Of a stretch of 33,225 nt of DNA, positions 3,900-31,548 are shown one piece after another. Below the pieces are notes generated by a model. That model did no database searches. It saw only the letters and a list, made by a program, of their open reading frames with translations, and was not told the origin of the DNA. This DNA is from Methanomassiliicoccaceae archaeon (GTDB lineage Archaea; Thermoplasmatota; Thermoplasmata; Methanomassiliicoccales; Methanomethylophilaceae). The stretch covers positions 1 through 33,225 of the forward strand of contig PUJZ01000071.1 in the NCBI GenBank assembly GCA_003550345.1, read 5' to 3'. Both the position numbers and the translations under genes were made by a program. Numbering within the stretch: the stretch's first letter is position 1; every line of letters starts with the position of its first letter.

Positions 3900-4310
3900 T
3901 CATTTATGATTCCGTACGAAGCCCATGATCGTGTTTATTATGTTCTTCACCCCATCGCTCCTTGATGGCGAAAGGTTCGTGCTCAGACCTGTTTCGTCCA
4001 AGAAGAAAAGCTCGGAATCCATTATCTCCTCTGGCCTCGTTCCGTCCATCACTCTCAGCAACAACGATAGGATCCCCCTAGTGATCAATGCGTCGCTATC
4101 TGCCTCGAGTTTCAACGTGCCGTTCTCCATGCCCATCCTCAACCAGACATTGGATTGACAGCCAGGTATGGCGTTATCCTCCGTTCTATGTTCTGGGCTG
4201 AGCGCATCGAGCCCCCGTCCTAATTCTATAAGGTGCTCGTACACATCGAACCAGTCATCCAAGACGGAGAACTCCGCGACGATTTCATTCTGGATCTCTA
4301 CGATGTCCAT
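3900..4310 (-). CDS. sufE: SufE-like sulfur acceptor for cysteine desulfurase
   Basis: This 136-residue cytoplasmic protein accepts persulfide sulfur from SufS and passes it on. The signature IPGCQSNVW carries the acceptor Cys at residue 51, the same number as in E. coli SufE. The N-terminal helix (EIQNEIVAEFSVLDDWFDVYEHLIELG) and the LSLLLRVMDGTRPEEI segment are typical of the family, and the length is normal. The start lies 4 bases after the sufS stop, which implies translational coupling. There is no SufBCD scaffold nearby. In this operon the sulfur may therefore serve EanB rather than Fe-S assembly; that role is inferred from context only. The gene ends the operon. Confidence 0.9.
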   Translation of the reverse strand: MDIVEIQNEIVAEFSVLDDWFDVYEHLIELGRGLDALSPEHRTEDNAIPGCQSNVWLRMGMENGTLKLEADSDALITRGILSLLLRVMDGTRPEEIMDSELFFLDETGLSTNLSPSRSDGVKNIINTIMGFVRNHK

Positions 4311-4314
4311 TGTA

Positions 4315-5532
4315 TCAGGCGAACAGTCCCTGGACCTTTCTAAGGCCCTCCGCTAGTATGTCTATCTCCTCCACGGTGTTGTACATCGCCAAGCTGGCTC
4401 TAACATTGCCTGTGATTCCATAATGGTCCATTAACGGCTCGGCGCAATGGGTCCCGGTCCGGACTGCGATCCCCATCTTGTCCAGTATCTGGCCGGCATC
4501 GTAATGATGGATACCGTCCAGATTGAATGAGAAGACCGGGCAGCGCAGGGGGGCGTTCCCGTAGAGGGTGAGCCCCTCGAATCCTGCGAGCGATTCCAGC
4601 ATATGTTCTGTCAGGACTGCCTCATGCTTCGCCACATTTTCCATCCCCAACGACGCGATGTAGTCCAAGGCGGCCGAAAGGCTCACCGCGCCCACGTAGT
4701 TCGGAGTTCCGGCCTCGAACTTGAGAGGCGGTTCTGCATAGGTGGTGCCGCCCATCTTCACTATGCCTACCATCCCCCCGCCGCCTTGGTACGGGGGCAT
4801 GTCCTCCAGCCATTCCGATTTCCCGTACAGCACTCCGATGCCCGTCTCGGCGTGCACCTTGTGGCCGCTGAATGCCAGGAAGTCGCAGTCGATGTCCTGG
4901 ACGTCCACCTTCATATGCGGGGCCGATTGGGCGGCGTCGACTAGCAACGGCACATCGTGCTCGTGGGCCAGTGACGCGATGTCCTTGACCGGGTTGACCG
5001 TCCCCAGTACGTTGGAGACATGGCTGACCGCGACCATCCTTGTGCGGGGATTGAGCATCTCCTCCAGCAGATGGGTTTCCAGGTTGCCGTCGTCATCGAA
5101 GGGCATCGACCTCAAAGAGGCCCCGCTGCGTTCGCAGGCCATCTGCCAGGGCACGATGTTGGAGTGGTGCTCCATATCGGTGACTATCACCTCATCCCCC
5201 CTTTCCAGATATGCGGAGGCGAAGGACTGTGCAACAAGGTTGATGCTCTCCGTCGTACCTCTGGTGAATATCACCTCCTCGTCCCGGGGGGCGTTGATGA
5301 ACCCCCTCACCTTGGACCTGGCGTCCTCGTAGGCGGCGCTGCATCTCCCGCTCAGCTCATGGACGCCCCGGTGGATGTTGCTGTTGTGATTGGTGTAGAG
5401 GTCGGTGACCGCCTCGATGACGCAGCGCGGCTTCTGGGATGTGGCGGAGTTGTCGAAATACACCAGCGGACGGCCGTGGACCTCGCTGGAGAGTATGGGG
5501 AAGTCCTCTCTGACCCTCTCCACATCGAACAT
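4315..5532 (-). CDS. sufS: Cysteine desulfurase, SufS type (group II)
   Basis: This 405-residue PLP enzyme converts L-cysteine to alanine and an enzyme-bound persulfide. The PLP lysine is in SGHKVHAETG (K225). The persulfide cysteine is in RTGTHCAEPLM (C363) on a short loop, as in group II enzymes. Further family marks are YFDNSATSQKP near residues 25-34, TEHHSN-like DMEHHSNIVPW, DAAQSAPH with the cofactor Asp, and NVRASLAMYNT near the C-terminus. These positions are almost identical to E. coli SufS (K226, C364). GAGGTC precedes the ATG by 6 bases. The gene starts 10 bases after eanA and is followed by sufE after 4 bases. Placement between an ergothioneine pair and SufE suggests a dedicated sulfur supply. 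Confidence 0.95.
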   Translation of the reverse strand: MFDVERVREDFPILSSEVHGRPLVYFDNSATSQKPRCVIEAVTDLYTNHNSNIHRGVHELSGRCSAAYEDARSKVRGFINAPRDEEVIFTRGTTESINLVAQSFASAYLERGDEVIVTDMEHHSNIVPWQMACERSGASLRSMPFDDDGNLETHLLEEMLNPRTRMVAVSHVSNVLGTVNPVKDIASLAHEHDVPLLVDAAQSAPHMKVDVQDIDCDFLAFSGHKVHAETGIGVLYGKSEWLEDMPPYQGGGGMVGIVKMGGTTYAEPPLKFEAGTPNYVGAVSLSAALDYIASLGMENVAKHEAVLTEHMLESLAGFEGLTLYGNAPLRCPVFSFNLDGIHHYDAGQILDKMGIAVRTGTHCAEPLMDHYGITGNVRASLAMYNTVEEIDILAEGLRKVQGLFA

Positions 5533-5542
5533 GACCGCGACC

Positions 5543-6535
5543 TCAGGCCCCCAGCCTCAGCAGGGAGAACCATCCCCGCTCATCGCTGTGGCTCTCGCGC
5601 ACCGACAGCCCCACGCCCTCTATCATGCCCTGCACCTGCTCCGGGGTGAACTTGTAGGAGTTCTCGGTATGGATCATCTCGCCCTCCTGGATCTCTATGG
5701 GCGCTTCCAGGCCCTCCACGCGCACGGTTGCGGGCGCCAAGGCGCGAAGATGCATCTCGATGCGGGACTCCTCGGGGTTGAAGAAGGCCACATGCTCGAA
5801 CATCCCCGGATCGAGCTGGGAGCCTATCATCCTGTTGACCACGTTGACGATGTTGCGGTTGAACTCGGCGGTCACGCCCTGGCTGTCGTTGTAGGCCTCC
5901 TCCATCACCGCCGCGTCCTTCACCATGTCGACGCCCAGCAGCATCTCGTCACCGGGGCGCAACACCTGCGCTAGCTCCTGGAAGAAGTCGTAGGCCTTCT
6001 CCCTCTCCAGGTTGCCGATGGTGCTGCCGAAGAACACCAGCAGGCGTCGGCGGCCGTCGGGCACGCAGTCCAGGTGCGACAGGAAATCACCCACTATGCC
6101 GTGTATGTCCATGCCGGGGAACCTCCTCCTCAGTTCGGCGGCCGATTCCTCCACCGCCGAGCGGCTGAAATCGACCGGCACATAGCGCAGGGTGGGGATG
6201 TCCTCGGCGGGCACGCGGCCGAGCAGAATGGATATCTTGGAGCAGTCGCCGCTTCCCAGCTCCACGATGTCATGGCCCCTTAGGCCGTGGGCCATCGCGT
6301 CGGCGGCCATGGCTATCAGCCTCTTCTCCAGCTTGGGAGGGTAGTACTCGGGAAGCTCGGTTATCATCTCGTAGAGCTTGGACCCGCGTTCATCGTAGAA
6401 GAACATCGAGGGTATCTCCTTGGGCTCCTTCAGCAGGCCCTCCACTATCGAGTCGGCGAGGTGAGAGCCCTTCAACTCAGGGAGGAAGTCCTGGATGATG
6501 AGCTCCCCCTCCTTCGGAACGCGGCCTTCAGACAC
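5543..6535 (-). CDS. eanA: EgtD-type L-histidine N-alpha-methyltransferase (EanA)
   Basis: The 330-residue protein belongs to the EgtD family, which trimethylates histidine with SAM to give hercynine. SAM motif I is DIVELGSGDCSKI. The residues known to bind histidine in mycobacterial EgtD are present with matching spacing: Tyr in LPEYYP (Y65), Gly and Asn of GSTIGN (G170, N175), Tyr of AYND (Y215), Met of IEMHL (M261), and Glu and Ser of TENSYKF (E291, S293). These pairings rely on my memory of EgtD numbering. I chose GTG 6533-6535, which overlaps the eanB stop (GTGTCTGA) and has GGGAGG 6 bases upstream. An ATG-like frame extending to 6625 would add 30 low-complexity residues inside eanB. A length near 320 is normal. 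Confidence 0.92.
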   Translation of the reverse strand: MSEGRVPKEGELIIQDFLPELKGSHLADSIVEGLLKEPKEIPSMFFYDERGSKLYEMITELPEYYPPKLEKRLIAMAADAMAHGLRGHDIVELGSGDCSKISILLGRVPAEDIPTLRYVPVDFSRSAVEESAAELRRRFPGMDIHGIVGDFLSHLDCVPDGRRRLLVFFGSTIGNLEREKAYDFFQELAQVLRPGDEMLLGVDMVKDAAVMEEAYNDSQGVTAEFNRNIVNVVNRMIGSQLDPGMFEHVAFFNPEESRIEMHLRALAPATVRVEGLEAPIEIQEGEMIHTENSYKFTPEQVQGMIEGVGLSVRESHSDERGWFSLLRLGA

Positions 6536-7853
6536 CGTAGAGCCTCCCGCTGACCTTGATGTCCGCAGGCTCGCCGGTCTCGATGGGGTTGGCGTCGTCG
6601 CTGCTCCATTCGAACCATCCGCCATCGTAGACCGATATCCGCGGCCAACCCATCAGCCAGGCGTTGAAGAAGGCCTCGCTGCCCCTCCAGCCGGTGCCGC
6701 AGTAGAAAGAGTTGTGCTTGTCGGGGGTGATGCCGGCCTCGGCCCACATCCTCCCTATCTCATGGAATTCGCGGGTGGTGTGGTCGAGGTTGCGGTAGTT
6801 CTCCATATGATAGGCGTCGCTGCCGCAGTTGCCGAACACCGCTCCGGGTATCCTCCCTTTCTTCTCTATGTAGTTGTAACCGCTCACCCTCCCGATGAGC
6901 TCAGGCCAGCTCCGCACGCATACCAGGTTCGAGTCCTCCGCCCCAAGTATGCGCTTCGCCTCGTCGGTGTCCACCGCCAGATCGGGTCGCTGAGGTATGT
7001 CCGCTCCGAACCCGGCGGCCCGCGGAGGAGAGGGCTCGGAATCGCTCAGCGGGTACCCCTCGTCGGTCCATGACTGCATGCCGCCGTTCAGGACCCGCAC
7101 GTCATTGACGCCGGCGTACAGCATTATGAAGGCGCAGCGCATCGCCCCCAGCTGGCCGGCGCTGCTGCCGGGGAACGGGTCGTCGTTGCGGGGATGGGAG
7201 AACCTCCCGTAGAGTATGACGGTGCTGTCCTTGTCTATGCCCTTGGACTCCAGCGCCGCCGCCAGCTCATCGGGGGAGCGGCGGTTCCAGCTGACGGTGT
7301 CCTCCAGGGAGTTGGTGTCGAGGTCCAGCGCCCCGGGTATGTGCCCCTGCTCGTAATCAGCGCGGTTGCGGTAGTGGCAGTGGCATATCACCGGGCTAGC
7401 GCCCTCGCAGGTGGGAGCGGATCCGGTGTCGATCAGAAGCTTAAGCCATTGGGCGGGGACCAGATGCCGGTGGCGGGGCAGGCTCTGCATCGGCAGCGAC
7501 GGGTCCTCGCTCCACTCGTCCAGGAAATCATGGTAGACGCGGACGTCGCCATGCCCCAGCCTCTCCAGGCCGGAGGCGACCTTGACTGCCTCCTCCCCGT
7601 AGCCGTAGACAACCGCGCGGGGGAAGGAGAGGACCCCTTTGTCCTCCACGATGTCAGGCCAGTCGATGTAATTAAGCCACTTCCGGGGCAGGCTCCTGGC
7701 GCCTTCGATGTGGCCACCCCTGCTCTCGCCCCCCAGCCTCCAGCCGTTGTAGGCGTCCACAGGGCGGGCGTCGATTACCACCGTTCCTTCATCATCGAGC
7801 GCTTCCAGGAGCTGAGGGGTCGATATCTTTCGAGAGCCGCTCACTTTTTCCAT
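6528..7853 (-). CDS. eanB: EanB-type hercynine sulfurtransferase (multi-rhodanese)
   Basis: The 441-residue protein has three rhodanese-like domains, at about residues 10-115, 130-270 and 290-435. Only the last has the active loop, FYCGTGWRGS, with Cys385. In Chlorobium EanB, the enzyme that puts polysulfide sulfur directly on hercynine to give ergothioneine without oxygen, the catalytic Cys is 412 and Tyr353 is important. Here Y326 lies exactly 59 residues before C385. C157, C312 and C343 fall at the spacings of the other EanB cysteines 184, 339 and 370 as I recall them. The GYNYIEKKGRIPGA block carries this Tyr. GGAGG lies 8 bases before the ATG. The gene leads the operon and overlaps eanA by 8 bases. 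An ordinary thiosulfate sulfurtransferase is less likely given this spacing and the neighbour. Confidence 0.88.
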   Translation of the reverse strand: MEKVSGSRKISTPQLLEALDDEGTVVIDARPVDAYNGWRLGGESRGGHIEGARSLPRKWLNYIDWPDIVEDKGVLSFPRAVVYGYGEEAVKVASGLERLGHGDVRVYHDFLDEWSEDPSLPMQSLPRHRHLVPAQWLKLLIDTGSAPTCEGASPVICHCHYRNRADYEQGHIPGALDLDTNSLEDTVSWNRRSPDELAAALESKGIDKDSTVILYGRFSHPRNDDPFPGSSAGQLGAMRCAFIMLYAGVNDVRVLNGGMQSWTDEGYPLSDSEPSPPRAAGFGADIPQRPDLAVDTDEAKRILGAEDSNLVCVRSWPELIGRVSGYNYIEKKGRIPGAVFGNCGSDAYHMENYRNLDHTTREFHEIGRMWAEAGITPDKHNSFYCGTGWRGSEAFFNAWLMGWPRISVYDGGWFEWSSDDANPIETGEPADIKVSGRLYGV

Positions 7854-8344: not shown

Positions 8345-8929
8345 TCACATGATGGGAAGGACGTTCTTTCCCTTCATGGTGTTGAACAGTATCGCGGTGG
8401 GCAGGTAGAGCGAAAGCAGGCCGGTGATGACACCGAGCAGACCGCCGAGCATCTCATACGTGGAGGAGTCGAGCTCTCCAACCCAGATCCACAGAGCGAC
8501 CATCAGGAAGGTCAGGCCGGCGAGCACGATGACCCCGGTGACCATCTTGACCGGCTGGGCCAAGGAGACGGCGCCCATGATGATCAGGAACACGGCCCCG
8601 AACAGCACGTACATCCCGGTGTCGGCGAATTCGGTCAATGCGCCCAGCTGGGCCCCGACCACTTCGGGGAACCCGTAGAAGAACACCGCCAGAATGCCGA
8701 ACAGAGCGGTCGCGAACATGTTGTCATTGAAGTAGCTGAACACCGCCACCAGTCCGAATGCAAGAGCTGCATACGGCAGGAAGGCGAAGACCATGTACAT
8801 GCTTCCGAACGGCCCTATACCGACATCCAGCAGTGCAAGCCCTACCATCAGGGCGACGAAGGCCACCAGGTACAAGCCTAGTATCTCCGGCATCGCCACT
8901 TTCACTTTCACTTCGTCGTGACTAGTCAT
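8345..8929 (-). CDS. GPR1/FUN34/YaaH-like acetate uptake transporter
   Basis: This 194-residue integral membrane protein has six predicted hydrophobic helices and short loops, the size and topology of the SatP/AceTr family that moves acetate and succinate with protons. The N-terminal EILGLYLVAFVALMVGL resembles the family's PxPLGL entry helix, but the usual NPAPLGL motif is degenerate. The fourth and fifth helices (GMYVLFGAVFLIIMGAVSLAQ and MVTGVIVLAGLTFLMVALWIWVG) also fit. GAGGT lies 7 bases before the ATG. A clear TATA box and a palindrome lie upstream. The gene is monocistronic. Substrate is inferred from family only, and the weak signature leaves room for another small transporter. Confidence 0.65.
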   Translation of the reverse strand: MTSHDEVKVKVAMPEILGLYLVAFVALMVGLALLDVGIGPFGSMYMVFAFLPYAALAFGLVAVFSYFNDNMFATALFGILAVFFYGFPEVVGAQLGALTEFADTGMYVLFGAVFLIIMGAVSLAQPVKMVTGVIVLAGLTFLMVALWIWVGELDSSTYEMLGGLLGVITGLLSLYLPTAILFNTMKGKNVLPIM

Positions 8930-9135: not shown

Positions 9136-10020
9136 TTAAAAGTTAGATTCTTCCCTCGCCCATGCTTTTTTAAGATCGTCCGCCCTGATGACCGTATCAC
9201 TATCCTCTGGTAGTTCCATGTAGGTCCGGTGCCGAGGGTTCCTCACTTTGGAGGCCATCCTCCTCTGCACGGAGTTGAACGTTAACGTGGTGATTATCCT
9301 CTGGTGGTCCGAGGGGATGAGCATGTCCTCCCATCTGAGGAAGCCCGCGTACACCGGGTTATGTAGCACGGTCCTCAGATTGTGCACGTTCCAGGGGTTG
9401 CCGCTGCGGGTGAGCGTGCCGTGCCGGTTGTTGAGCGTGAATGCGATGTCGTCCATGGACCTTCCCTCCAGATAGGCGGAGAATATCCATCTCACGATGT
9501 CGGCCTCGGACTCCTCCGGTATGAGGGAGCCTTCCTCCAGCCGGTACCCGTAAGGGACGCGGAAACCGAGGATGCCGCGCGCGGACTCCGCCTTCTCCCT
9601 CATGCCCATATAGGTCCGCTCGCCGATCTGCTCGCTCTCCAGTTGACCTATACGTTGGATCATGTCCATCACGAAACGCCCCAGGGCGTTGGATGTGTCC
9701 AAGGATTCGGTGGAGGAGCTGAAGCTCTTGCCCCATCCTTCGAGGGATTCCATCATCGCCATGAAGTTCTTCGAGCTGCGATGGATGCGGTCCATCTTCA
9801 GCACCAGGACGCAGTCCCAAAGCTCGCGCTCCTCCAGCATCCTCTGGTATCCGGGCCGGCGGGTGTTCCTCCCCGAATACCCGTCGTCCCGGTACACCGA
9901 GGCGACCTCCCATCCTTGGGCCTCGCAGTAGGCGCGCAGCATCTCCTCCTGCGCCTCCAGCGAATGGCCCTCCCGGGCCTGGTCCTCGGTTGACACTCGG
10001 ACGTAGAGGGCCGCCCTCAT
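9136..10020 (-). CDS. Small serine recombinase (resolvase + recombinase domain)
   Basis: This 294-residue site-specific recombinase carries the resolvase catalytic domain at the N-terminus: MRAALYVRVSTEDQAREG with nucleophilic Ser at residue 10, VLKMDRIHR, and GRFVMDMIQRIGQLESEQIGER. A recombinase domain (PF07508-like) follows, with IPYGY-like RVPYGYRLEEG and LHNPVYAGFLRW. The protein stops soon after this domain and lacks the zinc ribbon and long coiled coil of large serine integrases. I chose ATG 10018-10020 because the second recombinase in this window begins at the same residue. An in-frame GTG at 10086 would add 22 residues. It shares orientation and family with the recombinase at 12216-13019; the surface protein gene lies between them. 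Confidence 0.85.
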   Translation of the reverse strand: MRAALYVRVSTEDQAREGHSLEAQEEMLRAYCEAQGWEVASVYRDDGYSGRNTRRPGYQRMLEERELWDCVLVLKMDRIHRSSKNFMAMMESLEGWGKSFSSSTESLDTSNALGRFVMDMIQRIGQLESEQIGERTYMGMREKAESARGILGFRVPYGYRLEEGSLIPEESEADIVRWIFSAYLEGRSMDDIAFTLNNRHGTLTRSGNPWNVHNLRTVLHNPVYAGFLRWEDMLIPSDHQRIITTLTFNSVQRRMASKVRNPRHRTYMELPEDSDTVIRADDLKKAWAREESNF

Positions 10021-10335
10021 GGTTCCTTTAACATCGAATCCTGACTTATCGTTTTCCGAGGCCATGGCGGACAGGGTGCCTGACACATCCTGGCCGAAGG
10101 CCCTGACCGCGGTTGGCCTGTATCATCCTCCCTGCTGCTGGTGTGGCTCGTAATCGTCTTATACCTTTAGCAAAGGAAAGGAAGGCCCCCCGCTTACGCT
10201 AGAGCGGCATGCCCAGTCGCAACCAGGAACACCAATGCTGACGCTAGGCATTCCTGTCTCTACCGATAGGCATCGCTGATTGTGTCTCAACGTAACGGGA
10301 GACGGCCTCCATGCGCTACCTTAGGGGGCCGGTCC
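10021..10335. other. Spacer upstream of the first recombinase, with promoter palindrome
   Basis: A TATA-like GGTATAAGAC on the minus strand (about 10155-10164) is abutted by CCTTTAGCAAAGG (10164-10176), an inverted repeat with 5-bp arms. Two near-identical 12-mers beginning TAGGCAT occur at 10245 and 10267. I see no gene in this stretch apart from the possible N-terminal extension of the recombinase. Confidence 0.4.
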
Positions 10336-12215: not shown

Positions 12216-13019
12216 TCAGGCAGAGCCCTTCTCAATCACTGGGGGATCGTTGCCCCGGAGTCCGCTGAACTCCTCCTGGCTGATGATCGCCGCATGCTCC
12301 CCCTGCCTGAGAACGTCCGCCCAGCGGACGTATCCGCAGTACAGCGGGTTCTTCAGTATGCGGTGGACGCTCTGCCTGCTCCAGTCCAGGCCCTTCTTGC
12401 TCCTGATCCCCAGCGAGTTCATGCGGTCGGCGATGGCCTGCAGTGAGCTCCCCTCGGCGCGCATGCGGTACATCTCCCGCACGACGCGGGCCTCATGCTC
12501 GTTCACCGTGAGTCCGTCGTCGGTCACATCATAGCCGTAGGGATGCCCGAAGCCCAGTATGCCCTTGCCGCTCCTGGCCTTGTGCTCCATTCCCATGCGG
12601 ACGCGCTCGCCGATCTGCTCGCTCTCCAGCTGGGCGATGCGCTGCATGATGTCCATAACGAAGCGCCCCATGGCGGTGGTGGTGTCGAAGCTCTCCTGCA
12701 CCGAGTTGAACTCCTTCCCCCATCCGCGCAGAGCGTCCATCATCAGGGTGAAGTTGACCGAGTTGCGGTGGATGCGGTCCATCTTCAGCACGAGGATGAG
12801 GTCCCAGGAGCCGCTCTCCTCCATCATCCTGCGGTACGCCGGCCGCCTGACATCCCTGCCGGAGTGGCCCTCGTCCACGTAGACCGCGGCGACCTCCCAG
12901 CCCCTGGCCTTGCAATAGGCGCTCAGGCGCCTGCGCTGCGCGTCGAGGGAGAACCCTTCACGCGCCTGGTCCTCGGTGGAGACCCTGAGGTAGAGTGCGG
13001 CTCGCATTCCCATCCGCAT
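12216..13019 (-). CDS. Small serine recombinase (resolvase + recombinase domain)
   Basis: This 267-residue recombinase is a paralogue of the one at 9136-10020. Catalytic features are MRAALYLRVSTEDQAREGFSLDAQ with Ser near residue 14, LVLKMDRIHRNS, and GRFVMDIMQRIAQLESEQIGERVRMG. The recombinase domain contains GKGILGFGHPYGYDV and a C-terminal LKNPLYCGYVRWADVL. The protein ends shortly after this domain, with no zinc ribbon and no coiled coil. Two Met codons (1 and 5) can serve as the start. A minus-strand frame past the stop stays open to 12055 but is out of register and has no motif. The TATA box and a flanking palindrome upstream suggest regulated expression. Confidence 0.86.
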   Translation of the reverse strand: MRMGMRAALYLRVSTEDQAREGFSLDAQRRRLSAYCKARGWEVAAVYVDEGHSGRDVRRPAYRRMMEESGSWDLILVLKMDRIHRNSVNFTLMMDALRGWGKEFNSVQESFDTTTAMGRFVMDIMQRIAQLESEQIGERVRMGMEHKARSGKGILGFGHPYGYDVTDDGLTVNEHEARVVREMYRMRAEGSSLQAIADRMNSLGIRSKKGLDWSRQSVHRILKNPLYCGYVRWADVLRQGEHAAIISQEEFSGLRGNDPPVIEKGSA

Positions 13020-18307: not shown

Positions 18308-21300
18308 CTAGTCCTCCTCGTAAAGGAACTCGGCCAAGTGCACGGCCGATACCCTCTTGATCAGGTCCTTGCTGCGCTCCCGGTGCTCGTTCTCGTCTAT
18401 CTCCCCCTCGTCCAGAAGGCGGTCGAGCTCCTCCAGCTCCTCCCTGAGCACCTCCTGGGCCTGACGGAAGGCCTCCGCATGGGCATCGGAGCCCAGGCTC
18501 CGCTCCGCCGCCGGCCTCGGCGCCGGGCGGGGCGCCTCCACCCCACGGGAGGGGCCGCGCCTCAGCCTCCGCAGGGCCAGGTATGCGGCCAGGAGCAGGG
18601 AGAGCAGGAGGATGCCCCCCAGCGCGTAGCCGTCCAGCCACCCGATGTCCAGTCCCTGCTCGGCGGCCATCGCCACGATCGCCTCGCTGGCCGCCTCCAA
18701 CAGGAGGAGGATCTGGGCCGCCCATCCCTCCAGCTCCTCCCCGGCCTGCTGCAGCGCCGGCAGCGCCGATCCCTCCAGCCACGCCGTCAGCGCCGCGATC
18801 CCCTCGGCGCCCTGCTCCGCGAAGAGCTGCAGCTGCAGCGGGTGGGCCGCCGCCAGGAATTCCAGGAAGGAGAGCAGCCTGCCCAGCTCGTCCAGCTCCT
18901 CCGCCGCCACCGTGTCCGCCGAGATGGACGGCCCGCTCTCGCCGATGATGTTGCTGGTCGTCACATAGTAATGGTAGTTCACGCCGGAAGAGACGCCGCG
19001 GTCCACATAGCTCAGCCCGGCGGTGCTGCCGATGCGCTCCCATTCGCCGTCGCCGTCGTGGCGGTACACGGTGTAGGTCAAGGGATGGAGGTCGGTGGGG
19101 TATCCGCCGTCATCGAAGGGCTCCTCCCAGGAAATCTTGTTGTGTATCCCCGTCCAGCTCGCCTTGGACGATGCCTCGGTGGCCACCGGCCTCCCCGGCT
19201 CGCTCAACGGACGGGTGGAGAAGGAGAGCTCGTCCGTCCTCACGTTGCCGGCCCTGTCGGTGGACTGGACCGTGAGCTTGAATCCCTGGGGGTTGTCCAG
19301 CCTCTCGCTGGGCCGGAAGACCAGCGTCCCGTTGCCCGTCCATTCCATCGACCCGGGTACCCGGTAGCCGTCGTCATCCACCATGACGGCGTAACTGAGC
19401 AGAGTGTCCATGAGGGCCGGGTCCTCATGCAGCATCTCCGCCGGCACGTCGAAGAGATGGTCGTCGTATCCGTCAGCGGGGGAGGTCCACGCCAGCGCGG
19501 GGACCTCCTCGGACACCCTCAGCACCAGGTCGCGGGTGAGGTTGTCGCCGCTGTCGGAGCAATGGGCCCATATGCTCATCTCATGGACGCCCTCCTCCAG
19601 GTCAAGCGTCACGTTCAGCGCATCCCCCAGCGGCACGGCGGAGCCGTCGATGACGTAGCCGAAGCTGAAGTCGCCCTCGCCCCAGACGTCCCAGGAGATC
19701 TCCGCCGGCCTCCCGGCGTGGCCGTTCTTCGGCGATGTGACGTCGAAGATGGCCGCAGAGTCGCCGAACACGAGGCCCATGCTGTCGGACCCGAGGTTGC
19801 CGATGCGGTCGTAGGCGATCACCTCCACCAGGTGGTAGCCCTCGTCCAGGCCTTCCAGCGTCCGGGAGGTCTCCCCGGTGATGTCGACCGGGTCGCCGCC
19901 GTTTATGCGCATGTAAACGCGGTCGACGCCGCTCCCTTCGTCGTCCACCTGCCATTCCAGCGTCGTGGACGCGCCCACCAGCGGATGGCCGTCGGGGATG
20001 TCGATCGACACAACCGGCCCGGCGCTGTCCACCGTCACCGTGGCCGTGGCCTCCGCGCCGTTTCCCGCCTTGTCGAACGCGCGGACGGCGATCGCCCTCT
20101 CGCCTTCGTCCAAGTCAAGGACGTGGCTGCGCGAGCCTGCCGGCAGCGTTGAGACCGCGCCGTCCACGTCCACCTCGAAGCGGTCGATGCCGGAGGCATC
20201 GTCGCCGACGTCGTAGGCGCTCCACTCCAGCAGCCATTGCGAGCTGGGCAGGATCTTCCCGTCCAGAGGGGAATCCACCTTCACCTGCGGGGTGACGGTG
20301 TCGATGAAGAAGTCGGCGCGGGCGAAGCTGAAGTTGCCGTCAGGGGCGTAAGCGCGGACGCGCAGGACCTGCTCACCGTCGTCCAGGGAGACGGTCGCCT
20401 CCTGCTCCTGCGTCTCAATCCAATCTCCGGGGCCGATGCGGTACTCGTAGCGGTCGACCAGACCCGGGTCGGCGACGGACCATACGAAGGTGTTCGTCGA
20501 CGTGTTCAGATAGAAGTCCGCGGGATGGGTAACGCTCAGCACCTGGAGGTCGGTGAGGTAGTCTATGGTGAAGTTCATCACGCCGAGGTTGCCCAGGGAG
20601 CTGTAGGCCTTCACGGTGACGTTGTTCTCCCCGTGCACGAGGCCGAGGTCCCCGGCCCTGGTCTCGGGCTGGTCGAGGGTCCGGAAGGTCTCGCTGTCAG
20701 CGCTGAACATGTAGAGCTCCACGCCGGAATCCGCTTCGAATCCGAGGTCCAGCATATCGGTGGAGTAAGCTGAATCGGGAACGTCGCCGATGAATTCCGG
20801 CGGGTCGTTGATGTTATCCGCCAACGGTGACGGGTCGACGCCCTCGCCGGCGAGCTCATACTCGGCCGCGCCGGCGAGGTCGCTCCACCAGTTCCCGCTC
20901 CAATCGTTGTCGCCTTGGTTGTAGGCCTGCTCGCCCTTCTCCCAAACGCTGCTGCCGTTGTTCTCCACGAAGCTGTTGTTGGCCACCTTGCTGCCATCGC
21001 CTTCCATGATGATCGCGTGGGAGGGGCCGCGGGAGAAGACGTTGTTCTCCACCGTGAGGGCCGAGCCCTCCGACTGCAGGCCATGGACGTTGCCCTTAAC
21101 CAGGCTGTTGTTCCGGACCAGGGCATGCGAGTCGTAGAAGGACATCGCCGCCTGGTTGTCCCGGAAGGTGTTGTTGAGTATCGCTATGGATGAGGACGAC
21201 CTGACGCAGATCGCCAGCTCCTTGGCGGAGAAGAGGTTGTCGCGGACGGTGACGTTGGACGATCCGTTCAACGATACGCCCCCGCCGAGGCCGAGGAACT

Positions 21301-23152
21301 CGTTCCCGGCGATGACCACGTGCTTGCTGGTGTTCTCCAGGGTGACGCTGCATTCCCTCATGTCCTCGAATACCGCCCCGCTCAGGAGGTACGGGTCGGC
21401 CTCGGTGCCCGAGCCGGACCATTCTTCGTGCTCCTGGACCATGAGCTCGAGCTCCTCATCGCTGGTGGCCGCCATGTCCATGGACGGTATCTCGTCATAG
21501 CCGCCGATGCGCAGGGCGGGGTCGCCGAGCAGATTGAGCGTAGCGTACACCCAGCGGATGTACTGGTTGCCGAGGTTCTCGATCTGCGTCTCCTTGGCCT
21601 CCTGATGGACGCGGCCGAGGCTGTCCTCGGTGTCGAAGACCAGGTCCATGAAGGCCATGTCGAAGATGTTCGACGGTCCGTTGATGTAGACATCGGGGTC
21701 GCTGCTGCTGATGTACCAGCCGAAGCGGGAGTTGACGATGTTGGCGACCGAGTTCTTCTCGTCGGCGAGCATCGTGTTCGAGACCGAGCCGCGGTCGAAG
21801 CCTCCCACGTTGCAGCCCTGGCTGTACCAGATGTACGGAGCGTCGTTCTCGATCTGGTTCACGTTGGAGCTTCTCAGGGTGGCGAGGAAGTCGTAGTCGC
21901 CGTGGCCGAGGTTGTTGATGATGTGCGCCTCCTCCACCAGCGGCTTGATCTGGCTGAAGCGCATCTTCCCCTTGTCGCGCTCGTAATGCTTGGTGAGTTC
22001 GCGGTCATCGGGGACGAAGGGTGCGTTGGTGTCCTTGACGTCGCCTCCCCAGACCCTCTGGTCCAGACGCTCGCCCAGGAAAAGGACATTGTCCAGATAT
22101 TCGTCGCCGGCGCTGCGGCTCTCGTAGGCGATGACCTTCTCGACGTAGTTCCTGGCGCCTTCGACGGCGGAGACCGGCACGCGCCCGACCAGCACGTCAG
22201 CCACGGGATGGAAGGAGCTGGACCAGTCCACGCCCCCGCCGTACGCCCCGTAATAGAGGTCGGACGGTATGGCCTCGGTGTACTCGCCGGCGGTCAGGGT
22301 CACCTTGTGGGCGGGGACGATGCTCGCATCCCCGCCCAGGAGCAGGTACTCTATGCCGCTGACGTTGTGCTGGCTCCAGGCGAAGGCCCTGACGGCCTCC
22401 GAGAGGCTGCGGTCCGGATAGGCGGCGGCGACCTGGCTGGTGGTGTACACCCTCGCGTCGATGCCCAGGGCGGACCTCCAGCGCTCCAGCCTCTCGAACT
22501 CCTCCCGCAGAGAGGTGGAGGTGACGATCAGCATGTCGTAGTCCCCGGAGAGGACCCCTGCCTGGGACGGGTGAACGTCATTCCCGGACGCGCTCGGAGT
22601 CGGCGCACCCTCCTCGTAGAGTATCTCCACCTTCACCTCCTCGTGGAAATAGGCGCGGCCGTCATCGTGATATGCGATGGGCGTTACCGAGAGCGGGACG
22701 GCGGGCACGCCGTCCCGGTGGTATATCGGACCGGAATAGGCCAATGACGGGTCCGCGCCCGAGGAGCTGCCGTGGCTGTTGCCGTAGCTCAGCCTCGGGA
22801 TGTCGAAGACCCCCAGGGGCACGGGGTCGGAATGGCTTATCCTCAGGCCGATGATGCTCTTCGCCCCCAGCGGCAGCAGCACCTCCTGACTCAGCATCGG
22901 CAGCTCATAGGAGGATCCGCCCGGGGCGCCTATGACGGTCCCCTCGACGTGGAAGGGGCGCTGCTCAGAGCCGGTGAGCTCCGCCATGGGGAAGCTGAAG
23001 CTGACCTCGTGCGTCGAGTGCCCCGGGGCCGCGGCGCTGTGGAAAAGAGGCAGGCCTGTGAGGACGAGGGAAAGCGCCAGCGCCACCGCGAGGAGTCTGA
23101 GGCCGGCCTCCCTCCCATCATCCTGTCGCTCCCTGTAGGGCGTTGCCTCCAT
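18308..23152 (-). CDS. Giant surface protease: C25 (gingipain-like) with beta-helix, Ig-like and Fn3 domains
   Basis: With the start at ATG 23150-23152 the protein has 1614 residues. It begins with a signal peptide (about 15-45) and a propeptide-like beta region. A C25 cysteine peptidase domain spans about 205-570, with catalytic His417 in NNLGHGD and Cys447 in YSQGCNVGGFD. A right-handed beta-helix with NosD-like repeats follows (about 575-755). Several Ig-like domains come next, with the repeated phrase on the pattern GEQVLRVRAYAPDG, then a fibronectin type III domain (about 1315-1410). The C-terminus has an Ala/Leu-rich region, a membrane helix (about 1509-1528) and a cytosolic SHOCT-like helical tail (LDRLLDEGEIDENEHRERSKDL). 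A TATA box (GCTTATATGC) sits about 26 bases before this ATG, which supports leaderless transcription and rules against 65 extra N-terminal codons. The stop is TAG. Confidence 0.82.
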   Translation of the reverse strand: MEATPYRERQDDGREAGLRLLAVALALSLVLTGLPLFHSAAAPGHSTHEVSFSFPMAELTGSEQRPFHVEGTVIGAPGGSSYELPMLSQEVLLPLGAKSIIGLRISHSDPVPLGVFDIPRLSYGNSHGSSSGADPSLAYSGPIYHRDGVPAVPLSVTPIAYHDDGRAYFHEEVKVEILYEEGAPTPSASGNDVHPSQAGVLSGDYDMLIVTSTSLREEFERLERWRSALGIDARVYTTSQVAAAYPDRSLSEAVRAFAWSQHNVSGIEYLLLGGDASIVPAHKVTLTAGEYTEAIPSDLYYGAYGGGVDWSSSFHPVADVLVGRVPVSAVEGARNYVEKVIAYESRSAGDEYLDNVLFLGERLDQRVWGGDVKDTNAPFVPDDRELTKHYERDKGKMRFSQIKPLVEEAHIINNLGHGDYDFLATLRSSNVNQIENDAPYIWYSQGCNVGGFDRGSVSNTMLADEKNSVANIVNSRFGWYISSSDPDVYINGPSNIFDMAFMDLVFDTEDSLGRVHQEAKETQIENLGNQYIRWVYATLNLLGDPALRIGGYDEIPSMDMAATSDEELELMVQEHEEWSGSGTEADPYLLSGAVFEDMRECSVTLENTSKHVVIAGNEFLGLGGGVSLNGSSNVTVRDNLFSAKELAICVRSSSSIAILNNTFRDNQAAMSFYDSHALVRNNSLVKGNVHGLQSEGSALTVENNVFSRGPSHAIIMEGDGSKVANNSFVENNGSSVWEKGEQAYNQGDNDWSGNWWSDLAGAAEYELAGEGVDPSPLADNINDPPEFIGDVPDSAYSTDMLDLGFEADSGVELYMFSADSETFRTLDQPETRAGDLGLVHGENNVTVKAYSSLGNLGVMNFTIDYLTDLQVLSVTHPADFYLNTSTNTFVWSVADPGLVDRYEYRIGPGDWIETQEQEATVSLDDGEQVLRVRAYAPDGNFSFARADFFIDTVTPQVKVDSPLDGKILPSSQWLLEWSAYDVGDDASGIDRFEVDVDGAVSTLPAGSRSHVLDLDEGERAIAVRAFDKAGNGAEATATVTVDSAGPVVSIDIPDGHPLVGASTTLEWQVDDEGSGVDRVYMRINGGDPVDITGETSRTLEGLDEGYHLVEVIAYDRIGNLGSDSMGLVFGDSAAIFDVTSPKNGHAGRPAEISWDVWGEGDFSFGYVIDGSAVPLGDALNVTLDLEEGVHEMSIWAHCSDSGDNLTRDLVLRVSEEVPALAWTSPADGYDDHLFDVPAEMLHEDPALMDTLLSYAVMVDDDGYRVPGSMEWTGNGTLVFRPSERLDNPQGFKLTVQSTDRAGNVRTDELSFSTRPLSEPGRPVATEASSKASWTGIHNKISWEEPFDDGGYPTDLHPLTYTVYRHDGDGEWERIGSTAGLSYVDRGVSSGVNYHYYVTTSNIIGESGPSISADTVAAEELDELGRLLSFLEFLAAAHPLQLQLFAEQGAEGIAALTAWLEGSALPALQQAGEELEGWAAQILLLLEAASEAIVAMAAEQGLDIGWLDGYALGGILLLSLLLAAYLALRRLRRGPSRGVEAPRPAPRPAAERSLGSDAHAEAFRQAQEVLREELEELDRLLDEGEIDENEHRERSKDLIKRVSAVHLAEFLYEED

Positions 23153-23173
23153 ACGGATGGAATAACATCCGCA

Positions 23174-23183
23174 GCATATAAGC
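23174..23183 (-). promoter_or_regulatory. TATA box of the C25 protease gene
   Basis: GCTTATATGC on the minus strand is centred about 26 bases before ATG 23150-23152. This supports that start over the upstream in-frame one at 23347, which would lie upstream of the promoter. Confidence 0.5.
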
Positions 23184-23451
23184 AAACTTTTCCTACCATG
23201 CCGCAATCGATGGCCGCCCACGGCGCCGGGCATCGTGGCCACGGTCACATCGGATGGTGGCCCTCCGATCTCACCGGTGGGGATCCGTGGGCACCGCCGG
23301 GATCTTAATGACCGTTCGATGCGCTCTATTAGCCCCGTGACGGACATCTCATTTCTAGAGGTGTGAGGGGTCCTCTTTGTCGCTGAGGGGCCTCCACGGG
23401 CCTCCGGGCGCGGTTAATCGTTGAGTTTCCCTGTCCTGCGCCGAGATGTCC

Positions 23452-23510: not shown

Positions 23511-26500
23511 TCATCTCCTCTTCAGAACCAGAATGGACGCCCCCATCATCAGCATCAGGGCGAAGGGCAGAGCGCATATGCCGTCGTCATCGTCGTCGGG
23601 CGGATCCTCGTCCGGCAGAGCGGTTATGACGAAGCTGCCGCTGGTTGCGCTCCCGCCGCTGGGGGCGTGGGTGACGGTCACGCTCAGCATGGTGAGTTCC
23701 GCCGCGGCCCCGTCGAGCAGGCTGGCGGTCAGCCCATGGCCGGCGAAATCGGCGAACGCGACGGTCTGGTTGCCGGTGTCGCTCCAGAGGAGGTTGACCT
23801 GCATGCCGCTGAAGTCCAGGGCCTCGCCGACCTCGTAGGAAAGGCGCGGCTGCTGCTGGATCCAGACCGAGAGCACCACGCGGTTGACCGTTATATCGAA
23901 GGAGTCCTGCTGCCCGGAAGGGGTGTGGGTCGCCGTAACGGTGGTGTCGTCATGGGTCAACAGATGCCCCTGCACCGGGTCCGTTGCAAGGGAGCCGTGG
24001 CCCCAGGCGATGACCGAGCTGCTGCCGTCGCTCCATATCAGCCTCAGCTCGAAGCCGCTGAGGTCGATGGCGTCGTTGTAGTTGTAGACGGTCACGTCAG
24101 GAATGGTGTCGACCTCGACCGCTATGACCACGGTGTTGACGGTTATGCCGAAGCTGTCGCTATGGCCGGAGACGGTGTGCGTCACGGTGACGGTGCTGTT
24201 GGCGTGGGTCAGCGGGAAGCCGTGGGGCGGGTCGCTGCTCAGCGACGGGTCGTCCCAGGGCAGGACGGAGCTGCTGCCGTTGCTCCAGGTCAGGTTGAGG
24301 GTCAGGCCGGTGAGGTCGAGCGGCTCGCCGAAGTCGTACACGGTCGTCACCGCCGGGGCCTCTATCCCGACCGCGGTGACGATCGGGTTCACTGTGAGAG
24401 GGGCGCTCTGGCCGGACTCTCCGCTAGGAGCATGTGTGACGGTCACGGTGGAATGGCCGTGGTCAAGCGCGGTGCCGACCTCCGGTTCGGCCTCCAGCCC
24501 TTTCACAACGAATCCGCTGAAAGGAACGGCCTCGATGAAGCCGTCGCTCCAGGTGAGGACCGCTTCCATAATGCTGAGGTCGAGCGCCTCGCCGAAGTCG
24601 TACGTCAGCGAGGGCTGCGTGAGGATCCCCACATCGACCACCGTTCCGCCCACGCCCTGCAACAGGGGGTAATGTCTTCCATCCACCATGGTCCAGACCT
24701 CATCGAAGTCCCAGGAGGCGTCTGTGAATGTCGCCTGCGTCCGCATCCCCTCGGTGGTAATCCCGTCGCCGCCGGCGCTGACCGAGAGCCCGGAGGTCTG
24801 CATGTCCCAGAACGATGATGTGACCTCTGGTTCGGTGAATAAATCGAGCTCATAGCCCACCAGGCCGCCCGCGGCCTCGCCCAGGACCGCACCGACGGAA
24901 TAGGAATTGGCGATCAGCATGCCGTTGAGGCCCACCAGGCCGCCGGCCGCTGACACCTCCTCATCCCCGCTGGGAGGGACCAACGCGCCTATGGCGGTCA
25001 CGCTCCCCATGGCATAGGAGTTGTTGATCAGCCCAAAGTTCTGGCCCGCCAGCCCTCCTATAAGGGTGTATCCGTGGACGTCGCCGCTGGCGAAAGAGCG
25101 TTCGATGAGCCCCTGGTTGTGGCCAACGAGACCTCCGGCGGCGGAGAGGTTGCCGCTGTGCTCGCTGTCCGGCGTGCCGGTGGCGATGGCGTCCCCGCGG
25201 GAATATGAGTGTTCGATGACCCCTTCGTTCAACGCCGCCAGCCCTCCGACCAGGAACATGCCTTGTACGTCTCCGAGGGCGTGGCAATCAAGAATGTCGC
25301 CATCGTTCAATGCCACCAGGCCGCCGGCGACAGAGACATTGTTCATGAAGGCGTCCCCCGTTGCGACCGCCCCGGACGCGGTCACGTCCCCTGCTGAATA
25401 AGAGCCCTCTATCCCGCCCTCATTGATGGCCACCAGCCCTCCCACTCCAGCCCAACCCTGCACATCCCCCAGGGCGTGGGACCCGGAGATGTTCCCGGAG
25501 TTGTACCCCACCAGCCCGCCCACGGCGTACAGGCCGCTGACATCCCCAGTAGAATAGGAGAGGTCGATCGAACCCTTGAAGTTGATCCCCACCAGCCCGC
25601 CGGCGTAGGACACGTTGTCGAAGAAGCCGCCGTACGGGTCGGCCGTGGACCCGCGGGCGGTGACGCTGCCTGAGGCGTGGGAGTTGCTCACCTGGGCGTC
25701 ATCGGTGTTCACTCCCACCAGGCCCCCCAAGGCCCATTCGGCTGAGACGTGGCCGCTGGCGAAAGAGTTGTTCACGATCCCCATGTTCATGGCCACCAGG
25801 CCCGCGACCATGGATATCCCGTCAACCGCACCAGTGGCATAGCACGCATCGATCAGGCCCCCGTTAATCGCCATAAGCCCTCCGGCCACAGAGAGGTCCA
25901 GGCCCGGGGGTGCGATCACGGTGCCGGTCGCCGTCACATCGCCGGTGGCGTAGGATCCCGTCACACTGCCATCCATGGCGAATGCCACCAGGCCGCCCAC
26001 GATCGCCTCTCCGCTGACCTCTCCGGTGGAATGGCATTCCTCTATCATGCCGACATTGATGCCCGCCAGGCCGCCCACCGCCGATATGCCGGCCACATCA
26101 CCGTGGGCCGAGGACCAGCTGACGTTGCCCATGTTGAAGCCTATCAGGCCTCCGGCCGCCGAGTTGTTGACATCGGCGCTGAAACGGAAGACGCCCGCGG
26201 CCTCGACGGCGCCGGTCGCATAGGAGCCGCTGACGTTATGCAGGTTCTGCCCCACCAGCCCGCCCACGATGGCCAGGGCCTTGACGGAGCCGGTCGCGTG
26301 CGAGGCTTCTATCTCACCAATGTTCAGGCCTACGAGGCCTCCCACAGTGAGGTTCCCCTCCACATCACCGCTGGCTGAGCATTGGTCTATGGACCCCATG
26401 TTCATGCCCGCCAGGCCGCCGATGCCGTCGGCCCCCTTCACAGAAGCCCCATGGAAATGCGAATGGGCCAGGATCCCCATGTTCACGCCCGCCAGGCCGC

Positions 26501-28679
26501 CTGCCGCGGTGATGTTCATCCCTGGTTCCATCTCGATGCTTCCGGTCGCTTCCACCTTGCCGCTGGCACAGGAGCCGTTCACCTGGCCCATGTTTGCGGC
26601 CAGCAGCCCCCCGACCATTACCTCCCCCCTTACATCGCCGATTGAATGGCTGTTGTTTATCAGCCCCATGTTGATGGCGACCAGCCCTCCCACGGCGCTG
26701 ATTCCTTGGACATCGCCGCTGGCCTGCGAATCGCTTACGTTGCCGAAGTTGAAGCCGATGAGACCTCCCGCCATGGAGACGTTCATGTCCTCGTCCATTT
26801 CAACGCTCCCGGTCGCCAGGACATCGCCGGATGCGCGGGAGTCGCTGACGTTCCCCATGTTGAGGGCCAGGAGCCCGCCGGCCATGGCGACCGAATGGAC
26901 GCGGCCGGAGGCGCTGCAATTGACGATGGTGCCGACGTTCATCGCCGCCAGGCCGCCGATGGCGATGGCCCCGGACACGTCGCCTGAGGCCGAACAGTCC
27001 AGCAATTCACCGACGTTCATACCGACCAGGCCTCCGGCGGCAGAGGCCTCCAAGCCGCCCCCCAGATCCTCGACGTCGGTGACGAGAACGTTCCCGCTGG
27101 CATGGGACTTCGATATGCTGCCGTTGTTGATGCCTGCCAGCCCTCCGGCCACCGCCGCAGACCGCACATCGCCGCTGGCGTCTGACTTCGATATGCTTCC
27201 CTCATTCATGCCTACCAGGCCGCCCGCCGCCTCCTCGCCCTTCACCTCCACGGAGGATGAGGAGCTCTCGATGACCCCTAGGTTCACACCTGTCAGCCCT
27301 CCGACCATCATGAGGGTCCCATTGACGACGCCGCTCGCGCTGCAGCCGATGACATCACCCAGGTTGGCCCCTGCCAGCCCCCCGACGCCGATCCCGGCGG
27401 TGATGTCCACGCCGACCATGTGGAGATCGCTGACCTGGCCGCTCTCCCCGATGAACACGAACAGCCCCCCGCCGAGGTCACCGGGGCGGTTGACGTATAG
27501 CCCAGATATTTCGTAGCCGTTGCCGCTGAAGGTGCCGTTCAGCCCGTAGTGGAACCTGTCGTTCTCTATGTCGTCCATCGTCAGGTGGCCGATGGGCAGG
27601 AAGCCCTTGCCCTCGGTCTCGTTGCTGCCCCACATGCCGCTCTTCCGCTTTACGTCAGCGAGGTCGATGTCGCTCATGAGGACGTAATCGGAATCACGGT
27701 CCATGGCCATCAGCTGCAGCTGGTGGCTGTTCCTTATCTCCGTGGACCATTCCATGCGCAGGAACGGCCGCGTCTCATTGTCGGCCATCCACCAGACGCC
27801 GTCGAAGTCCCAGTCTGCGAAGGTGGACTGCCGCATCATCTCGTCGGTGGTCCTGCCCTCGCCGCCGACCGAGGTCGTTTGTTCAGTCGTCTGATTGTCC
27901 CAGTAAGATCGGTCTACGGAGCCCTCATTGTGGCCGACGAGGCCGCCGACGTGAGTGTTGCCGATGACATGCCCGGAGGCGTATGATCCGCTGACGGTGC
28001 CATGATTATAACCGACCAGGCCGCCCGCCACGTCGTCGTAACCCCTAACCTCCCCTATGGCGTAGGATTCGGTGATTGTGCCAGAGTTAAAGTTCTGACC
28101 GACGAGGCCGCCGACACGGGTGTTGCCGCTAACTTCTCCAGAGGAGTAGGATTGGTTGACCATGCCGTTGCTGTAACCGATGAGGCCACCCACGTTCCAA
28201 TCGCCGCTGATTTTTCCAGTGGAATAGGATCGGTTTACGGTGCCATCACTATAACCGACCAGGGCGCCGACCCATCCGCGGCCGCTGACGTCCGCGTCCA
28301 TCAGCCCGACGTCCTTGATCTCTGCCGTTCCTGAAATACGACCGAATAGGCCAACGCAGTCGGTAGAGGTGCGGTCAATGAAGAGGCCGTTTATGGTATG
28401 GCCGTTGCCGTCGAAGGTCCCGGTGAAAATGTCCATCTCGTTGCCGATGGGCTCGAAGCCGGCGCCGCCGTTCCAGCCCGAGCTGTCGCTGGCGTCGATC
28501 GAGTTGTTCAGGACATAGTGGGCGCTCAGGTCGTTCTGGATGTCCTGAAGCCCCTGCAGATCGAAAATGAGGATCGGGCCGTCACCGGGATCGGCGGCGG
28601 ACCTGTATGAGGCGAAGGGGGCCAGCAAAGCTAAGATGAGGACCGTGGCCACGATGACCGTTGTGATCTCCTTCGCCAT
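23511..28679 (-). CDS. Giant GLUG-repeat surface protein with Big_3 domains and IC-x-LPFAL tail
   Basis: With the start at ATG 28677-28679 (GGAG 7 bases upstream) the protein has 1722 residues. An N-terminal hydrophobic segment (about 6-22) acts as signal peptide. Next come about 34 GLUG-type repeats on the pattern GGLVGxNxGxIxxSxAxGxV, in two blocks of about 5 and 29. Each block ends or begins with the WDFDxVW segment (STFADWDFDGVW and TDASWDFDEVW). Four Ig-like Big_3 domains follow, each with a Y-x-F/Y-G-E-x-L-D-L and W-S-D/N-G element and ending VTVTH. The end is an Asp-rich linker, ICALPFAL, a short hydrophobic stretch and KRR. GLUG proteins are adhesin-like, so cell-surface attachment is the likely role. 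An in-frame GTG at 28700 is an alternative start with poorer spacing. Confidence 0.88.
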   Translation of the reverse strand: MAKEITTVIVATVLILALLAPFASYRSAADPGDGPILIFDLQGLQDIQNDLSAHYVLNNSIDASDSSGWNGGAGFEPIGNEMDIFTGTFDGNGHTINGLFIDRTSTDCVGLFGRISGTAEIKDVGLMDADVSGRGWVGALVGYSDGTVNRSYSTGKISGDWNVGGLIGYSNGMVNQSYSSGEVSGNTRVGGLVGQNFNSGTITESYAIGEVRGYDDVAGGLVGYNHGTVSGSYASGHVIGNTHVGGLVGHNEGSVDRSYWDNQTTEQTTSVGGEGRTTDEMMRQSTFADWDFDGVWWMADNETRPFLRMEWSTEIRNSHQLQLMAMDRDSDYVLMSDIDLADVKRKSGMWGSNETEGKGFLPIGHLTMDDIENDRFHYGLNGTFSGNGYEISGLYVNRPGDLGGGLFVFIGESGQVSDLHMVGVDITAGIGVGGLAGANLGDVIGCSASGVVNGTLMMVGGLTGVNLGVIESSSSSVEVKGEEAAGGLVGMNEGSISKSDASGDVRSAAVAGGLAGINNGSISKSHASGNVLVTDVEDLGGGLEASAAGGLVGMNVGELLDCSASGDVSGAIAIGGLAAMNVGTIVNCSASGRVHSVAMAGGLLALNMGNVSDSRASGDVLATGSVEMDEDMNVSMAGGLIGFNFGNVSDSQASGDVQGISAVGGLVAINMGLINNSHSIGDVRGEVMVGGLLAANMGQVNGSCASGKVEATGSIEMEPGMNITAAGGLAGVNMGILAHSHFHGASVKGADGIGGLAGMNMGSIDQCSASGDVEGNLTVGGLVGLNIGEIEASHATGSVKALAIVGGLVGQNLHNVSGSYATGAVEAAGVFRFSADVNNSAAGGLIGFNMGNVSWSSAHGDVAGISAVGGLAGINVGMIEECHSTGEVSGEAIVGGLVAFAMDGSVTGSYATGDVTATGTVIAPPGLDLSVAGGLMAINGGLIDACYATGAVDGISMVAGLVAMNMGIVNNSFASGHVSAEWALGGLVGVNTDDAQVSNSHASGSVTARGSTADPYGGFFDNVSYAGGLVGINFKGSIDLSYSTGDVSGLYAVGGLVGYNSGNISGSHALGDVQGWAGVGGLVAINEGGIEGSYSAGDVTASGAVATGDAFMNNVSVAGGLVALNDGDILDCHALGDVQGMFLVGGLAALNEGVIEHSYSRGDAIATGTPDSEHSGNLSAAGGLVGHNQGLIERSFASGDVHGYTLIGGLAGQNFGLINNSYAMGSVTAIGALVPPSGDEEVSAAGGLVGLNGMLIANSYSVGAVLGEAAGGLVGYELDLFTEPEVTSSFWDMQTSGLSVSAGGDGITTEGMRTQATFTDASWDFDEVWTMVDGRHYPLLQGVGGTVVDVGILTQPSLTYDFGEALDLSIMEAVLTWSDGFIEAVPFSGFVVKGLEAEPEVGTALDHGHSTVTVTHAPSGESGQSAPLTVNPIVTAVGIEAPAVTTVYDFGEPLDLTGLTLNLTWSNGSSSVLPWDDPSLSSDPPHGFPLTHANSTVTVTHTVSGHSDSFGITVNTVVIAVEVDTIPDVTVYNYNDAIDLSGFELRLIWSDGSSSVIAWGHGSLATDPVQGHLLTHDDTTVTATHTPSGQQDSFDITVNRVVLSVWIQQQPRLSYEVGEALDFSGMQVNLLWSDTGNQTVAFADFAGHGLTASLLDGAAAELTMLSVTVTHAPSGGSATSGSFVITALPDEDPPDDDDDGICALPFALMLMMGASILVLKRR

Positions 28680-28713
28680 GTTCTCGCTCCGTTCAAGCAC
28701 CCCCTAGCAAACT

Positions 28714-31526: not shown

Positions 31527-31548
31527 GGATAAGGGGAACATTTAGGAG

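Follow-up and report, generated by a model that had tools for sequence, protein, structure and literature searches.

Gene content of the locus

The window analysed here, 33,225 bases of DNA from a Methanomassiliicoccaceae archaeon, is an entire contig (C102) of a draft genome of 1.40 Mb (89% complete). Its minus strand carries four closely spaced genes, eanB, egtD/eanA, sufS and sufE in that order, which encode a rhodanese-type ergothioneine synthase and a histidine methyltransferase, followed by a cysteine desulfurase and a sulfur carrier, with catalytic residues kept in all four (Table 1). The contig is archaeal, since the top PDB match of its thermosome is that of Thermoplasma acidophilum (1a6d) and it also encodes an archaeal Nre. 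The closest reliably named relative of the four-gene unit is found in a Candidatus Methanomethylophilaceae genome (L022).

An initial annotation of this DNA had described the four genes as a tightly packed operon, and both their positions and their short spacing hold: gaps of 10 bases separate egtD from sufS and 4 bases separate sufS from sufE, while egtD overlaps eanB by 8 bases once its start is revised. The ATG originally listed, at 6625, gives an overlap of 98 bases; the GTG at 6535, which is preceded by GGGAGG and matched by an ATG at the same place in the close relative L021, is likely to be the true start.

Table 1. Positions of the four-gene unit and of neighbouring features in the window
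Feature	Position	Strand	Basis
eanB-like ergothioneine synthase, a single chain with three rhodanese stretches	6528..7853	-	566 bits to PDB 6ktv (phmmer); Pfam Rhodanese x3; C385, Y326, T387, R390
egtD/eanA L-histidine N-alpha-methyltransferase	5543..6535	-	TIGR03438 336 bits; PF10017 1e-100; active-site residues; GTG start
sufS group II cysteine desulfurase	4315..5532	-	TIGR01979 560 bits; 461 bits to PDB 5vpr; K225, C363; EanB-linked SufS clade
sufE sulfur acceptor/carrier	3900..4310	-	PF02657 133 bits; PDB SufE match with C51 aligned, IPGCQS loop; EanB-linked SufE clade
Membrane protein	8345..8929		Weak match to acetate uptake transporter
Short serine recombinase	9136..10086		Resolvase and Recombinase domains
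Short serine recombinase	12216..13019		Read from sequence only
Very large surface-type protein	18308..23347
Very large surface-type protein	23511..28700
feoB	28917..30602
FeoA domain fused to methyltransferase domain	30606..31541		Nicotianamine-synthase-like methyltransferase domain

Enzyme identities and catalytic residues

The EanB of the window is 58% identical to that of Chlorobium limicola (PDB 6ktv) over 422 aligned residues, and its phmmer score against this protein is 566 bits, as opposed to 286 bits against YnjE. Alignment of the two, as the initial annotation had recommended, equates Y326, C385, T387 and R390 with C. limicola Y353, C412, T414 and R417. These four columns are invariant among 110 sequences, and deposited EanB chains altered at the Tyr and Thr positions (6kw0 and 6kvz) point to the same columns. 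The predicted pairing of C385 with a tyrosine exactly 59 residues earlier is thereby borne out. The three further cysteines to which attention had been drawn (C157, C312 and C343) each coincide with a cysteine of the Chlorobium enzyme in the alignment, but this adds little to the assignment, because Ser occupies the C312 column in about half of the SufE-linked sequences and, according to the summary of Cheng 2020 in PMC9103826, every cysteine of C. limicola EanB but Cys412 is dispensable. A sulfur relay through the extra cysteines was also considered and rejected, as their conservation in the alignment of the EanB family is too low.

The methyltransferase exceeds the curated TIGR03438 equivalog cut-off (336.1 against 290.9 bits) and retains the equivalents of Y39, Y56, G161, N166, Y206, M252, E282 and S284, in agreement with the EgtD-type residues first noted, with F47 replaced by Tyr. 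The histidine-binding set (Y56, N166, Y206, M252, E282 and S284) is therefore complete. SufS likewise passes its TIGR01979 cut-off (560 against 475 bits), and its pyridoxal phosphate-binding lysine, K225, and catalytic C363 are invariant in 47 linked sequences; SufE scores 133.5 bits against a PF02657 threshold of 27 bits, with C51 invariant in 55 linked sequences. The desulfurase is a stand-alone protein of 405 residues without another domain, and so is not fused to a molybdopterin domain as in the metallopterin-dependent ergothioneine synthase (MES). Nor does the unit, which consists of four genes only, contain the SufB, SufC or SufD of the SUF iron-sulfur (Fe-S) assembly system.

It could be argued that the rhodanese is a YnjE-like or thiosulfate sulfurtransferase-like enzyme with another substrate, in which case the product would not be ergothioneine; rhodanese-fold enzymes are versatile and, according to PMC7278568, ergothioneine had still to be detected in archaea. 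This proposal deserves hardly any credence, given the much higher score to EanB than to YnjE, the invariance of all the catalytic residues and the contiguity of an EgtD with an intact histidine-binding site. Furthermore, seven of the eight checked EanB genomes that lack egtD downstream of eanB carry it elsewhere.

Recurrence of the unit across phyla

EanB was sought in approximately 85,000 species genomes, giving 391 matching stretches, of which the best 80 were analysed; as these loci are the closest matches, the proportions of locus types among them are not unbiased, and the genome counts given below rest on searches of genomes. The full EanB-EanA-SufS-SufE order is present in 14 of the best 80 loci, distributed between Thermoplasmatota (L022 and L048), Aminicenantes (L031), Planctomycetota (L033), Omnitrophota (L035, L049 and L070), Bacillota (L039), Elusimicrobiota (L042 and L046), Methanosarcinaceae (L067 and L085), Fibrobacterota (L087) and one contig labelled Candidatus Nealsonbacteria (L021, PWEN01000020.1). 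Three others of the 80 have EanB-SufS-SufE without EanA in line (L024, L025 and L089) and eight have EanB and SufE alone (L023, L026, L027, L028, L032, L037, L052 and L081), while the locus L029 is interrupted by a contig end. The survey suggested with the original description thus shows the same gene order recurring beyond Thermoplasmatota in seven other phyla, represented by Methanosarcinaceae and six bacterial phyla, and EanB-linked SufE in about a dozen phyla. Within the Methanosarcinia, 29 of 238 genomes contain EanB; the order is complete in 27 of these, and the remaining two are cut by contig ends (L167 and L173). Comparison of the neighbourhoods of unit-bearing loci found no fifth gene common across lineages.

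Some individual loci required separate interpretation. The EanB of L021 is 81% identical to that of the window and the genes downstream are common to both, for which reason L021 is probably a mis-binned archaeal contig. In three Bacteroidales loci (L066, L079 and L086), EanB and EgtD occupy a single open frame, apparently an EanB-EanA fusion. A TGA codon inside some methanogen EanB matches was considered as a true interruption and rejected, L067 having an uninterrupted EanB frame; it looks like a match overrunning the gene's own stop.

Co-occurrence of SufE with EanB

The association extends from gene order to genome content. In the Methanosarcinia, SufE is present in all 29 genomes with EanB and in 2 of the 209 without it (Fisher p ~3e-35, relatedness being ignored). 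Of these 31 genomes over the SufE cut-off, two are thus exceptions: in one (G541, L182) a SufE-SufS-EgtD series runs off the contig end where eanB would lie, and in the other (G602, L183) SufE scores far lower and is not recovered by EanB-linked queries. Among the Thermoplasmatota, after exclusion of two families with their own type of SufE, the protein is found over the cut-off in three of the four EanB genomes (G000, G094 and G108, the fourth, G193, being cut at a contig end) and in none of approximately 266 others (p ~1e-6). In the Omnitrophota the figures are 3/3 for EanB genomes, all of them already known carriers, and 3/282 for the others; the fetched stretches of the latter three (G701, G744 and G896) contain no relative of EanB, EgtD or SufS, and when their SufE sequences were added to the SufE tree as outgroups, the linked clade was not broken up. 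Genomes with all four genes almost always have no SufE other than the linked one. These tests reject a chance neighbourhood. The control genome of Methanosarcina acetivorans gave a match to the PF10017 histidine methyltransferase and none to SufE in the control searches.

Phylogeny of the linked proteins

The EanB-linked SufE sequences, drawn from archaea and some ten bacterial phyla, form one clade (support 100/99) in unrooted trees with a narrow sampling of housekeeping SufE. The linked SufS sequences also form one clade (98/93), distinct from the archaeal paralogous desulfurases that these genomes also encode. On the EanB tree, with contig-cut loci left out of the count, one change suffices to account for SufE linkage (branch support 99/94). 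The unlinked side comprises the Bacteroidota, the Chlorobiota and part of the Ignavibacteriota, and includes C. limicola EanB. Since linkage amounts to one change and each of its partners to one clade, these unrooted trees fit a module that was assembled once and then spread horizontally.

All 51 SufE-linked EanB sequences and all 4 contig-cut loci (L029, L064, L167 and L173) have an Asn at the fourth position ahead of the catalytic Cys. As a residue signature of SufE linkage this Asn can be taken as a marker rather than proof, because it also occurs in five unlinked sequences (L036, L038, L057, L073 and L074), and it is confounded by phylogeny.

Relation to the Fe-S machinery

SufS and SufE might simply be a general or Fe-S sulfur supply that shares an operon with EanB. 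In favour of such a role, the genome of the window encodes an archaeal SufB on another contig (C58), and its 89% complete assembly yielded no second SufS. However, an EanB-less congener (G137) has no SufE yet retains SufB, and several four-gene genomes, two of them single-contig assemblies (G108 and G395), have no SUFBD match, so that SufS-SufE does not serve as Fe-S machinery in those genomes; others have only one SufB, of archaeal type and located elsewhere. The genome of L022 and those of the methanogens also hold a separate desulfurase of another lineage, and the association of SufS-SufE with EanB recurs across phyla. A general supply is consequently very unlikely. In three genomes (G394, G407 and G408), SufS lies beside SufB/D in a separate bacterial SUF operon and SufE alone lies beside EanB, which identifies SufE as the constant partner of EanB.

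The source of sulfur for EanB

The recurrence of the unit, the co-occurrence of SufE with EanB and the single clades formed by linked SufE and SufS together give strong support to the suggestion, made in the initial annotation, that EanB has a dedicated SufS-SufE supply. It is very probable that the four genes constitute a cassette, spread horizontally, that makes ergothioneine without oxygen and draws the sulfur for EanB from SufS-SufE. The fusion of a cysteine desulfurase to the ergothioneine synthase MES (PMC9516567) also speaks for such a supply, as does the ability of IscS to feed EanB in vitro (PMC9103826). By analogy with characterised relatives of each enzyme, EgtD/EanA would trimethylate histidine to hercynine, and SufS would take cysteine sulfur onto C363 and pass the persulfide to SufE C51, as is established for SufS-SufE pairs. 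The persulfide on C51 would then charge EanB C385, putatively by protein-protein contact. In the last reaction, established for C. limicola EanB, the C385 persulfide would deliver the sulfur that replaces the C2-H of hercynine, with Y326 protonating the imidazole, to yield ergothioneine. For the C. limicola enzyme, turnover is about 0.5 per min (PMC11767532).

A direct handover from SufE to EanB is somewhat favoured. IscS, a cysteine desulfurase, can supply EanB in vitro (PMC9103826), but the account of Cheng 2020 summarised in that article reinterprets its effect as polysulfide formation, with polysulfide the direct donor, and puts Cys412 at the bottom of a 13 A tunnel thought to be beyond the reach of IscS. 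By extension, SufS-SufE might feed EanB indirectly, converting cysteine to polysulfide or small persulfides that would diffuse down the tunnel to Cys385. The conservation of the C. limicola catalytic residues in the window's EanB is consistent with this, and the supply role of SufS-SufE would be unchanged by it. A polysulfide-only route nevertheless leaves unexplained why a distinct clade of SufE sits beside EanB, sometimes without SufS. No test of the tunnel objection as applied to SufE was found in the literature. The cysteine of SufE sits on a loop that enters the active site of SufS, and the steric argument made for IscS therefore need not apply to it. Delivery by diffusing polysulfide is accordingly possible but rather doubtful. 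The wider proposal, that there are two groups of EanB with different sulfur logistics, and that outside the group of the Bacteroidota and Chlorobiota a specialised SufE subfamily provides protein-bound persulfide in place of free polysulfide as the physiological donor, is evenly balanced.

Along with the reinterpretation of the IscS result and the tunnel, several observations weigh against the conclusions drawn here. No biochemistry of the SufE-linked EanB subgroup was found in the literature; besides the lack of detection of ergothioneine in archaea, the Chlorobiaceae are reported to show no sign of it as a major thiol (PMC6282198). The split between linked and unlinked EanB largely tracks phylogeny, and so represents few independent events. 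Finally, among 46 draft genomes in which EanB is not linked to SufE, 38 have SufE elsewhere and in eight no SufE was found at all; as these genomes are drafts, the absence is likely to reflect incompleteness.

Neighbouring genes

Upstream of the unit lie two short serine recombinases, and a related serine recombinase is likewise found upstream in L022; these may be linked to mobility of the cassette. The membrane protein upstream of eanB is also present there in L022. Of the two surface-type proteins, that at 18308-23347 has peptidase C25, beta-helix and Ig-like regions, and that at 23511-28700 is a GLUG-repeat protein of 1729 residues. The FeoA-methyltransferase fusion adjoining feoB suggests possible metallophore-type chemistry tied to iron uptake.

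Relation to known systems and significance

The anaerobic ergothioneine pathway of C. limicola, consisting of EanA and EanB, was reportedly described in Burn 2017. The C. limicola proteins (PDB 6h98 and 6ktv) resemble those of the window in comprising both enzymes, with the same catalytic residues, encoded by adjacent genes in anaerobic hosts; by contrast, no sampled member of the C. limicola EanB group has an adjoining SufS or SufE, whereas in the group to which the window's EanB belongs a dedicated SufE, often together with SufS, is part of the unit. The MES of Caldithrix abyssi (PMC9516567) is also anaerobic, with a histidine methyltransferase partner and a dedicated desulfurase that delivers cysteine sulfur, but this desulfurase is fused to a molybdopterin-type synthase, whereas the window has a rhodanese-type synthase whose SufS and SufE are free-standing proteins. 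The SufS-SufE (SUF) and CsdA-CsdE pairs of Escherichia coli are equivalent desulfurase-carrier pairs, with the same catalytic Cys and Lys and SufE Cys51; they differ in that the window's unit lacks SufB/C/D, several of its hosts show no SUFBD, and the linked SufE and SufS each group in a clade of their own. In ABA3-STR18 and the CD-Rhd fusions (PMC8931425), a desulfurase similarly charges a rhodanese cysteine with persulfide, although no SufE carrier lies between them and the acceptor is not a biosynthetic C-S-forming enzyme.

The initial annotation had considered ergothioneine genes in an anaerobic archaeon to be worth reporting in themselves. This novelty is not borne out, EanA-EanB in archaea having already been noted in print (PMC9103826, PMC7278568, PMC11993508 and PMC9516567), with Methanococcoides vulcani and Methanohalophilus mahii among the named carriers (PMC7278568; PMC11993508); as a prediction from genomes, therefore, the pathway in archaea is not novel. 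By contrast, no description of SufS or SufE adjoining eanB was found in the papers searched on EanA/EanB or on ergothioneine together with SufE, a scope outside which Burn 2017, Leisinger 2019 and Cheng 2020 fall, and these might mention it. The SufS and SufE partners of EanB hence appear to be unreported.

The recurrence of the four genes points to a testable answer to the question of where EanB obtains its sulfur in vivo, for which a SufE clade that accompanies EanB in both bacterial and archaeal hosts, spanning about a dozen phyla, is a specific candidate donor. The culturable genera Methanohalophilus and Methanolobus are among the carriers of the cassette, and could serve as models. The unit is also a small set of genes for making ergothioneine without oxygen, and it lends weight to the idea that this thiol is functional in strict anaerobes. 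If the proposed handover is correct, SufE would act beyond Fe-S assembly, as the sulfur donor of an enzyme that forms the C-S bond of a small thiol, and SufS, SufE and EanB would make up a transferable ergothioneine sulfuration module.
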